Shown here one piece after another: positions 159 to 35,950 of a stretch of DNA of 53,206 bases. The position numbers were made by a program, and so were the translations under genes. Numbering within the stretch: position 1 is the first letter of the stretch; every line of letters begins with the position of its first letter. The stretch is from Elusimicrobiaceae bacterium. GTDB taxonomy: Bacteria > Elusimicrobiota > Elusimicrobia > Elusimicrobiales > Elusimicrobiaceae. The stretch is taken from assembly GCA_017961295.1 (NCBI GenBank), contig JAGCXL010000014.1:1-53206 (forward strand). The letters are read 5' to 3'. The notes under the pieces were generated by a model that saw nothing but the letters and a program-made list of their open reading frames with translations, did no database searches and had not been told where the DNA came from.

Positions 159-227
159 ATAGTTTTATTATACCAAATTGCCAAAAAGAGTGCAACACCG
201 GGTTAAAAAATATTTTTAAAATAGGCC

Positions 228-255
228 TTGAAATTTTTTCATATATGCTTATACT
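228..255 (+). promoter_or_regulatory. Strong sigma70-type promoter of a small RNA candidate
   Basis: TTGAAA (228-233), a 16-nt spacer and TATACT (250-255), preceded by an A/T-rich stretch (about 211-222) that could act as an UP element. The predicted transcription start is near 262, just before a structured RNA. Confidence 0.55.
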
Positions 256-261
256 AGCAGT

Positions 262-332
262 AAGGGAGAGCCACCACAGACCCGATTTAACGGGAACGTC
301 TCTTGTAGGGGACATCGGCCTCCCGTTTTTTT
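262..332 (+). ncRNA. Putative small structured RNA with three-way junction and terminator
   Basis: Three helices can be drawn. P1 pairs GGGAG-A-GCC (264-272) with GGCCTCCC (317-324), with A269 bulged. P2 is CCCG (281-284) with CGGG (291-294) closing loop ATTTAA. P3 is GTCTC (298-302) with GGGAC (309-313) closing TTGTAG, including one G-T pair. P1 is followed by G and seven Ts (326-332), so it doubles as the terminator stem. A good promoter ends 7 nt before the start. I do not recognise a known family: no SRP GGAA loop and no 6S-like long rod. Any open reading frame across it overlaps repeat sequence and looks spurious. Structure and promoter are seen; being a stable transcript is inferred. 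Confidence 0.45.
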
Positions 333-475: not shown

Positions 476-512
476 TCGGCCTCCCGTTTTTTTTGTCTTC
501 TTAAAAAGAGTT
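476..512 (+). repeat. Direct repeat copy 2
   Basis: Same unit as 315-350, with eight Ts instead of seven in the T-run. Only the 3' half of the upstream small RNA candidate is duplicated, so this copy cannot form the same three-way structure. Confidence 0.8.
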
Positions 513-641: not shown

Positions 642-713
642 GGTGCGGTGGCCAAGTGGTAAGGCGAGAGTCTGCAAAACTCTTATTCGTGGGTTCGATT
701 CCCACCCGCACCT
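642..713 (+). tRNA. tRNA-Cys (anticodon GCA)
   Basis: Acceptor GGTGCGG (642-648) pairs with CCGCACC (706-712). The anticodon stem AGAGT/ACTCT encloses loop CTGCAAA, giving anticodon GCA; the T-arm is GTGGGTTCGATTCCCAC. CCA is not encoded: T residues follow the discriminator. The 3' end is duplicated about 213 bp downstream. Confidence 0.95.
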
Positions 714-11778: not shown

Positions 11779-14113
<2,335 letters not shown>

Positions 14114-34107: not shown

Positions 34108-35217
34108 CTAAAAAGTTTTCACGTGAAAACTTTTATCTAAAATTTGTTGATAAAGCTGTTGATACTGTTGAGCGCTATCTACCTTTTTAGTATTCTTTTT
34201 CAATATATTTTCTTCCATAGATAGCCGTAGCGCTGTATTTTCATATAATTCCGCCAACAGACAACTGATAATCATTTCATCTTGCGGGTTGCAGATAAAA
34301 CCGGTTTTTCCATGTTCTACATATAAAGGCATGTCCCCTACGCGGCTGACAATACAGGGGCGCCCTGCTTGCTGGGCTTCCAGTAAAGAGAGGGGTAAAG
34401 ATTCCTCCCGGGACAGCAATACAAAAACATCTGCCATATTAAGCCAGTCGTTTATGTTTTTTTGAAAACCTACTAAAAAGATATTGTTGGATAGATTTTT
34501 TTCTTTTATAAATTTTTCTAAAGCCGTACGTTCTTCCCCTTCCCCCACTAAAACTAATTTAGCATGCGGACAGTTTGTAAGAATTTTGGAAAAAGCAGTT
34601 AAAAGCATTTTAAAATTTTTAACCGCGGCTAAACGCGCTACACTTAAAAAAATAATATCCTCCGGTAAAAAACTCATTTTTTGGCGCATTTGTTTTTTGA
34701 TAGAATTATCCTTAAAAAATAAGGACTTTTCTACAGAATTGGCTATAAGGGCCGTTTTTTGGGGGGGGTAATGCTGAACATCCCGCAAATAGTTATATGT
34801 GCTAGTGGATTCGGCTGTGCTCACAGTATCTATGCTTTTAAGTGTGCGGTCTAGCCAGCGCATCCATAGCGGTTTTTTGGATAAATCAAAATGGGGGGTG
34901 GTAATTAATTTAATGTTTTGGCCCGCACAAGCTAAACGCGAAAATTCTATCGCACGAAATAACAATGCGTGTACGATATCGGGTTTGAAAGATTCTATTT
35001 CGCGTTTTAATTGAGAAACACATCCTAGGCCTGCACCGGTCATTTCCAAGGACGTAACAGACGCGCCGAGTTGTTGTAAATCCGTCGCCAAAGGGCCGCA
35101 TTTTTTTAAACTCACTACGCGTACGGTGTGACGAGGGGAGAGTGTTTTAACTAAACGAACTAAAGCTGTTTCCGCACCGCCTACGTCGGTGGAAGTGATG
35201 ACGTATAAGAGTTTCAT
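34108..35217 (-). CDS. Glycosyltransferase family 4 protein
   Basis: A 369-residue GT-B enzyme, probably for surface polysaccharide or LPS. The N-terminal acceptor domain starts MKLLYVITSTDVGGAETALVR (glycine-rich GGAE loop); the C-terminal donor domain has LSVARLAAVKNF, LVGEGEER and the EESLPLSLLEAQQAGRPCI region with the E-x7-E pattern. Substrates are unknown. The last codons (FHVKTF and stop) are formed by parS site 3. The -10 TATAAT (35225-35230) lies 7 nt before the ATG and no Shine-Dalgarno is seen, so the mRNA may be leaderless. Confidence 0.9.
   Translation of the reverse strand: MKLLYVITSTDVGGAETALVRLVKTLSPRHTVRVVSLKKCGPLATDLQQLGASVTSLEMTGAGLGCVSQLKREIESFKPDIVHALLFRAIEFSRLACAGQNIKLITTPHFDLSKKPLWMRWLDRTLKSIDTVSTAESTSTYNYLRDVQHYPPQKTALIANSVEKSLFFKDNSIKKQMRQKMSFLPEDIIFLSVARLAAVKNFKMLLTAFSKILTNCPHAKLVLVGEGEERTALEKFIKEKNLSNNIFLVGFQKNINDWLNMADVFVLLSREESLPLSLLEAQQAGRPCIVSRVGDMPLYVEHGKTGFICNPQDEMIISCLLAELYENTALRLSMEENILKKNTKKVDSAQQYQQLYQQILDKSFHVKTF
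34111..34134. promoter_or_regulatory. parS site 3, inside the end of the glycosyltransferase gene
   Basis: The core GTTTTCACGTGAAAAC (34115-34130), with AAAA and TTTT flanks, is identical to sites 1 and 2. It encodes the last residues of the glycosyltransferase, so the site and the protein end evolve under a shared constraint. Confidence 0.9.
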
Positions 35218-35224
35218 TAGGTCT

Positions 35225-35230
35225 ATTATA
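35225..35230 (-). promoter_or_regulatory. -10 box of glycosyltransferase gene (leaderless type)
   Basis: Perfect TATAAT preceded by an extended TGC, 7 nt before the ATG at 35217. The expected transcription start coincides with or is one base from the A of the ATG. Confidence 0.55.
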
Positions 35231-35269
35231 GCAAGTTTTTATTGACGATAAAATATCCACTTGGTAATG

Positions 35270-35310
35270 TAATATAAAAAATAAAACACCCGCTTTGGTA
35301 GCGGGTGTTT
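35270..35310 (-). terminator. Intrinsic terminator after outer-membrane protein gene
   Basis: AAACACCCGCT (35284-35294) pairs with AGCGGGTGTTT (35300-35310); on the minus strand an AT-rich tract with TATTTTTTAT follows. Confidence 0.85.
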
Positions 35311-35329
35311 GTGATTTCTAAAACAATGT

Positions 35330-35950
35330 TTAGAAGTAGAAGCGGCCAGCTAAAGCGGCACCAAAGCCAGAGCGGTCAGACAAGATTTCTCCGTCCTTTT
35401 TCACTTTAGCGGCAATGTTATAGCGGGCATCTAAACCGAGGGCAAATACTTCGGTAAAGCGGTATTCTACACCAGCTACGAGGTGCGGAAATACTCTATT
35501 TTTGGAATCACTATTGTTCCCAAAGAAAGCACCATCGCTTTCTACCTTGGTATGCATAATAGTGACACCAGCACCACCGAACCAAGAGAATCTATTTACA
35601 CCGTTATCGCGTCTGTAATAAACAGTGAAAGGGAAGGCATAGGATTCTTCCGTTACTTTGCCACCGAAAGTTTTGTTTTCGATTTTGTTTTCACCGTAGA
35701 AGTCCAAACCGATTTTGGCACCGAGTTTGTTAGCTTCGTCGTTAAGAGCCCATTCGTGTAAGACTTCCAAGCTCAGGTATCCCGGTGCTTTATCCATTTC
35801 CTTGCTTCCCGGCATAGCATCATAAATGGATTTCATGTCTTTCGGATCGTTTTGACCGGCACCGAGTTTTACGGCAGCACCCCAATCTTTAGCCATTACG
35901 GCCGGGGCGATAAACAATACTGCGAGTACAGCAATTGCTAGTTTTTTCAT
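35330..35950 (-). CDS. Putative outer-membrane beta-barrel protein
   Basis: A 206-residue exported protein. The signal peptide (MKKLAIAVLAVLFIAPAVMA, cut after residue 20) is followed by alternating polar/aromatic strands (for example YAFPFTVYYRRDNG, RFSWFGGAGVTIMHTK, VAGVEYRFTEVFALGLDARYN), ending in a C-terminal Phe (AGRFYF) as many Omp barrels do. It resembles OmpA/OmpW-type small barrels in layout, but no family motif is certain. AAGGAG precedes the ATG. A second protein of the same style is encoded at 40445-41071. Confidence 0.8.
   Translation of the reverse strand: MKKLAIAVLAVLFIAPAVMAKDWGAAVKLGAGQNDPKDMKSIYDAMPGSKEMDKAPGYLSLEVLHEWALNDEANKLGAKIGLDFYGENKIENKTFGGKVTEESYAFPFTVYYRRDNGVNRFSWFGGAGVTIMHTKVESDGAFFGNNSDSKNRVFPHLVAGVEYRFTEVFALGLDARYNIAAKVKKDGEILSDRSGFGAALAGRFYF

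Follow-up and report, generated by a model that had tools for sequence, protein, structure and literature searches.

Between a tRNA-Gly gene, inside which the 53,206-nucleotide stretch of Elusimicrobiaceae DNA analysed here (the window) begins, and a tRNA-Cys gene lies a short segment that raises the question of whether it encodes a small RNA and, if so, how such an RNA would act. An earlier note on this DNA had described a promoter followed by an RNA of three helices that ends in a T-run, and had offered two readings, a housekeeping or trans-acting small RNA or a short riboswitch-like terminator. Comparison with related genomes points to a genus-specific, trans-acting, structured and probably protein-binding small RNA as the most likely answer, with the function inferred from the sequences.

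The candidate RNA in the window

The elements of the locus are as follows.

218 to 227, forward strand: conserved box directly 5' of the -35 (AAAATAGGCC in the window; family consensus approximately AAnTTnGGnC), from column conservation in 57 promoters
228 to 233, forward strand: -35 hexamer TTGAAA, with TTGA in 57/57 relatives
250 to 255, forward strand: -10 hexamer TATACT, with a spacer of 16 in 49/57 and 17 in 8/57
262 to 332, forward strand: small structured RNA (predicted transcript ~70 nt, with predicted ends), from covariance models R1/R2
264 to 272, forward strand: 5' arm of P1 with A269 bulged, from the minimum free energy (MFE) fold and compensatory change in 7/8 P1 pairs
281 to 294, forward strand: P2 hairpin (281-284/291-294), from the MFE fold and compensatory change in 3/4 pairs
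298 to 313, forward strand: P3 hairpin (298-303/308-313), from the MFE fold and compensatory change in 4/5 pairs
317 to 324, forward strand: 3' arm of P1, from the MFE fold and covariation
326 to 332, forward strand: U-tract of the predicted terminator, from the sequence and from runs of four or more Ts in 46/57 relatives
642 to 713, forward strand: tRNA-Cys gene, found near the RNA throughout the genus (outside the RNA, listed for context)

The MFE fold of positions 258-332 consists of exactly the three helices that the earlier note had named, all of them at the coordinates it gave: P1 (264-268 and 270-272 paired with 317-324, leaving A269 bulged), P2 and P3. The promoter it had proposed is likewise present, with 16 nt between TTGAAA and TATACT, and a -35/-10 pair was found in 57/57 relatives; seven Ts (326-332) do come after G325. 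The folding energy of 258-332 is -25.8 kcal/mol (z = -2.6, with 2/200 shuffles equally stable), which makes the fold moderately unusual for a single sequence, and the promoter matches at 10/12, where 3.2 promoter-like sites are expected by chance in 2 kb. Neither the z-score nor the promoter match is decisive alone, and comparative evidence was therefore needed.

Repeated and folded sequence was also observed nearby and at related loci. Window positions 476-512 hold a partial direct repeat of the 3' arm and tail of the RNA (TCGGCCTCCCGTTTTTTT...AAAAAGAGTT), which follows a GC-rich stretch of ~125 nt and was found only in the window's genome. Two related GC-rich intergenic stretches at 355-435 and 740-835 share the core ATACCTCsGCGCTACCGCGC and look like a dispersed repeat family; a similar stretch lies upstream of tRNA-Cys in the sister-genus locus L132. 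Upstream of tRNA-Cys in two loci of sister genus g3 (L129 and L130), a long GC-rich hairpin, preceded by a possible 9-codon ORF, carries a T-tract that points towards tRNA-Cys.

Distribution and covariation

In 150 related genomes searched at the nucleotide level, 26 clear homologues were found, in the same genus and with identity down to 73%. The covariance model R1, built from 25 sequences, matched in 54/66 genus genomes, and R2, built from 41 sequences with divergent members among them, matched in 57/66; the genus, to which the window belongs, consists of UBA1436-type Elusimicrobiaceae from rumen and gut. The RNA is present in 36/36 genus genomes with completeness of 90% or more and contamination of 5% or less, always as one copy per carrying genome, and the named carriers are uncultured Elusimicrobium or Elusimicrobiaceae, several of them from the rumen and UBA1436 itself included. 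Nine genus genomes are without a match; one of these (G012) also lacks a tRNA-Cys match, and the other eight are less than 90% complete. Outside the genus, the covariance search found the RNA in 0/275 other genomes of the phylum, and a search of sister-genus tRNA-Cys loci with filters off found no homologue. The weakest true matches within the genus still adjoin tRNA-Cys; since the search took no account of position, this counts as independent evidence. Three weak matches away from tRNA-Cys (L086, L087 and L088) were dropped, being without promoter and fold. A single pattern match in IMG/VR (L120), located in phage DNA, has no 5' arm and no model match and was attributed to chance.

The 57 sequences (54 distinct; pairwise identity mean 0.70, minimum 0.41) are paired at 92.6% of the cells of the consensus structure. 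Compensatory double changes occur in 14/17 base pairs, compared with 1-6 when the partners were slid as a control, and all three helices covary (P1 in 7/8, P2 in 3/4 and P3 in 4/5 pairs). The number of double-change cells is 64 and compares with 11.9 in shuffles, of which 0/500 reach 64, and the covariation score is 0.272, against at most 0.101 with slid partners. Parsimony on a tree made from the RNA sequences themselves places double changes that retained pairing on 14 separate branches. Single-sequence folds of divergent members give the same three-way junction, for example at L080 (z -3.9) and L085 (z -2.9); the exception is L070, whose single-sequence MFE differs from the consensus and which fits the model at 66.9 bits. 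The sequence of P1 differs among clades (GGGAG-n-GCC, GGGAACGC, GAAGGCC and GGGAA-CCC), so selection acts on the helix rather than on a particular sequence. Small indels in J1/2 and in the P2 loop of relatives argue against a coding role.

Conservation of sequence is concentrated at particular unpaired positions. The adenosine after P1 (junction A, column 13) and one U of the P2 loop both have a frequency of 1.0, and parts of the P3 loop are also conserved. Columns 14-18 of J1/2 are variable, with top-base frequencies of 0.41-0.62. Within the main clade J1/2 varies while the P3 arm and loop (CUCUUGUAGGGG) are identical in ~20 species.

A chance fold or plain terminator with no functional RNA would agree with the only moderately unusual z of the window sequence, and is extremely improbable: the covariation in three helices contradicts it, and both the promoter in every relative and the occurrence in every near-complete genus genome stand against it. 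Because there are 57 orthologues, 14/17 compensatory pairs and a promoter in 57/57, we regard the existence of the RNA gene as settled by this comparison to near certainty. The small-RNA reading of the earlier note, which had named conserved pairs with compensating changes as its support, is borne out by these pairs and by the covariance search.

Promoter and termination

The box upstream of the -35 is conserved nearly as strongly as the -35 itself, with column frequencies among the 57 promoters of 0.96/0.98 for A, 0.91 for T, 0.91 and 0.93 for the two Gs and 1.0 for C. The distance from the -10 to P1 is near-fixed (8 nt in 43/52 and 7 nt in 5/52), which suggests that the RNA begins with the 5' strand of P1. 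In nearly all species of the genus, the neighbouring tRNA-Cys and tRNA-Gly promoters have no clear -35 and carry a T-run and an extended -10 (TTTTTTGnTATAAT), and the pattern GGnCTTGA was absent from them in 57 and 48 cases, respectively. The promoter of the RNA, with its strong -35 and additional conserved box, is thus unlike those beside it, and the RNA is probably controlled separately from the neighbouring tRNAs.

A genome-wide search for the promoter pattern, allowing a gap ~3 nt longer than the exact spacing at the RNA, found the box with this slightly longer gap twice more in the window's genome and 0 times with a reversed-pattern control. At L141:1440-1670 (G000:C18, ~12440-12670), a promoter with the same box (AAATTGGGTCTTGAAA...TATACT) precedes a 178-nt non-coding region (L141:1493-1670) flanked by a mazG-like gene and a gene resembling that of a sodium:alanine symporter. 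This region is unannotated and strongly folded (z -3.4), has a canonical strong terminator and gave no Rfam match; it is possibly a second RNA of the same promoter class. At L140:1540-1885 (G000:C14, ~35040-35385), GGGCTTGACA and TATACT precede ~300 nt without an ORF, and this promoter is divergent from a LexA/XRE-S24-like repressor gene.

At the 3' end, 46/57 members have four or more consecutive Ts within 12 nt of P1, and the longest run in the other 11 is 3. A simple scan found a second hairpin, GC-rich and with a T-tract, 10-30 nt downstream at about two thirds of loci and none at the window locus. The earlier note had held that folding and termination are linked through P1; this applies to the window and to most members but is not general, given the 11/57 members without a proper U-tract and the second hairpin at about two thirds of loci. 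Closure of P1 would end transcription in most species, with a back-up hairpin in many. Taken together, the comparison shows a dedicated, conserved promoter, P1 directly after the expected start site, three helices selected for pairing and, as a rule, a U-tract immediately behind P1.

Mode of action and relation to known RNAs

The gene downstream of the RNA is not constant. In the genus, the RNA adjoins tRNA-Cys within a tRNA-Cys/Gly/Thr-tuf region, and among the sister-genus genomes examined most have tRNA-Cys, -Gly and -Thr in one orientation, with no such RNA found beside tRNA-Cys. Three loci (L011, L080 and L122) retain this tRNA order, and there the RNA and tRNA-Cys diverge. In most species a block made up of the RNA and tRNA-Cys seems to be inverted with respect to tRNA-Gly, and in the window's clade (L003/L004/L008) the RNA alone is reversed. 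These rearrangements have placed different genes behind the RNA: tRNA-Gly, tRNA-Cys or any of several genes for unrelated proteins. The variable downstream gene and the inversion of the RNA alone indicate an independent transcription unit and not a cis-regulator. A cis-acting leader or orphan riboswitch, in which the junction would sense a ligand and P1 would be a regulated terminator for the downstream gene, is accordingly quite improbable, even though P1 and the U-tract are laid out like an expression platform and three-stem junctions are common among riboswitch-like motifs (PMC8632094); the second terminator ahead of the next gene at many loci also speaks against it. The earlier note's option of a short riboswitch-like terminator is disfavoured on the same grounds, namely a downstream gene that differs among genomes and a conserved promoter of the RNA's own.

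The remaining explanations concern what an RNA acting in trans would contact. Its independent promoter and U-tract, together with a P3 arm and loop that are invariant in the main clade while J1/2 varies, would suit a riboregulator that pairs with mRNAs as a trans antisense RNA through an apical loop (GUAAA, GUUAA or UUGUA of P3, or UUUUA of P2) without Hfq. We give this reading serious weight and consider it unlikely, as the loops are only ~5 nt, AU-rich and clade-specific, most of the RNA is paired, its single-stranded J1/2 is variable, and Hfq (PF17209) was detected in 0/149 genomes of the order by a search that matched 5/14 control genomes. Replacement of a missing housekeeping RNA, either a 6S-like binder of RNA polymerase or the SRP RNA, would accord with the detection of 6S RNA (RF00013) in 0/149 genomes of the order and of SRP RNA in 0/66 (RF00169) and 0/149 (RF01854), the SRP result being a soft negative since the search also missed the B. 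subtilis control. This replacement is very improbable: on inspection the RNA has neither the rod-and-bubble shape of 6S RNA nor SRP domain IV features (no GGAA loop or AGCA motif), it matches neither RF00013 nor RF00169, and sister genera that do not carry it are also without 6S and RF01854 matches.

We favour, as an inference, a compact protein-recognised RNA over a seed-and-target antisense RNA, because conservation covers the fold, the junction adenosine and parts of the loops and does not extend to J1/2, the possible antisense seed, and because no Hfq was detected in the order; the conserved loops themselves would also fit base pairing or tertiary contacts. The predicted transcript of ~65-70 nt would fold as it is made, P2 before P3 and P3 before P1, and would be trans-acting, its likeliest role being that of a compact scaffold or decoy whose junction and apical loops are recognised by a protein. 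This whole explanation, including the mode of action of an independent, trans-acting, structured and protein-recognised RNA that is a core feature of genus UBA1436, seems to us reasonably probable. A bolder form is speculative and rather doubtful: the RNA may be a genus-specific core RNA whose binding partner is a central machine (RNA polymerase, a translation factor or the ribosome), in a lineage where neither 6S RNA nor Hfq is detectable, and may share a specialised promoter box (approximately AAnTTnGGnCTTGA) with a set of small RNAs of which L141:1493-1670 would be another.

Other candidate assignments were rejected. A bacterial Y RNA was rejected on finding the Ro/TROVE protein (PF05731) in 0/66 genus genomes, and neither a CsrA-decoy motif (GGA) nor an anti-Shine-Dalgarno motif (CCUCC) is conserved in divergent members. 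Kissing between the P2 and P3 loops, considered by eye, was dropped, as UUUA/UAAA fits the GUAAA clade and not the UUGUA or GUUAA clades.

The claim that the RNA belongs to no known family withstood a search of Rfam 15, in which the window RNA had no match at the gathering threshold, only sub-threshold matches on the other strand, and ten divergent orthologues had none at E<=10. Judged by these searches, it represents a new family among the structured small RNAs of bacteria. Our literature searches found no report of small RNAs in this phylum, to which a well-supported family is now added, and the alignment and the two covariance models allow the RNA to be annotated in any genome of the genus. 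Such an RNA, single-copy, confined to one genus and found in all of its near-complete genomes, where neither Hfq nor 6S RNA is detectable, offers a clean entry to small-RNA roles there.

The RNA shares with bacterial trans-encoded small RNAs a sigma70-type promoter of its own, an intergenic position, a predicted length in their range of ~60-120 nt, a predicted 3' U-tract or terminator and no conserved reading frame. It differs from them in that nearly its full length is a closed three-way junction without a conserved single-stranded seed, in an order without detected Hfq. 6S RNA and Y RNA (YrlA, RF02553) are small housekeeping-type RNAs with pairing ends, and the end stem of Y RNA is bulged, as P1 often is here. 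However, 6S RNA is a ~180-nt rod with a central bubble, unlike the present RNA, and Y RNA needs the Ro/TROVE protein, while RF02553 has no match to this RNA. The icd-II and ldh2 three-stem-junction motifs (PMC8632094) likewise arrange three helices round a junction with P1 formed from both ends, but each precedes one type of gene, whereas the RNA described here has its own promoter and predicted terminator and is followed by varied genes.
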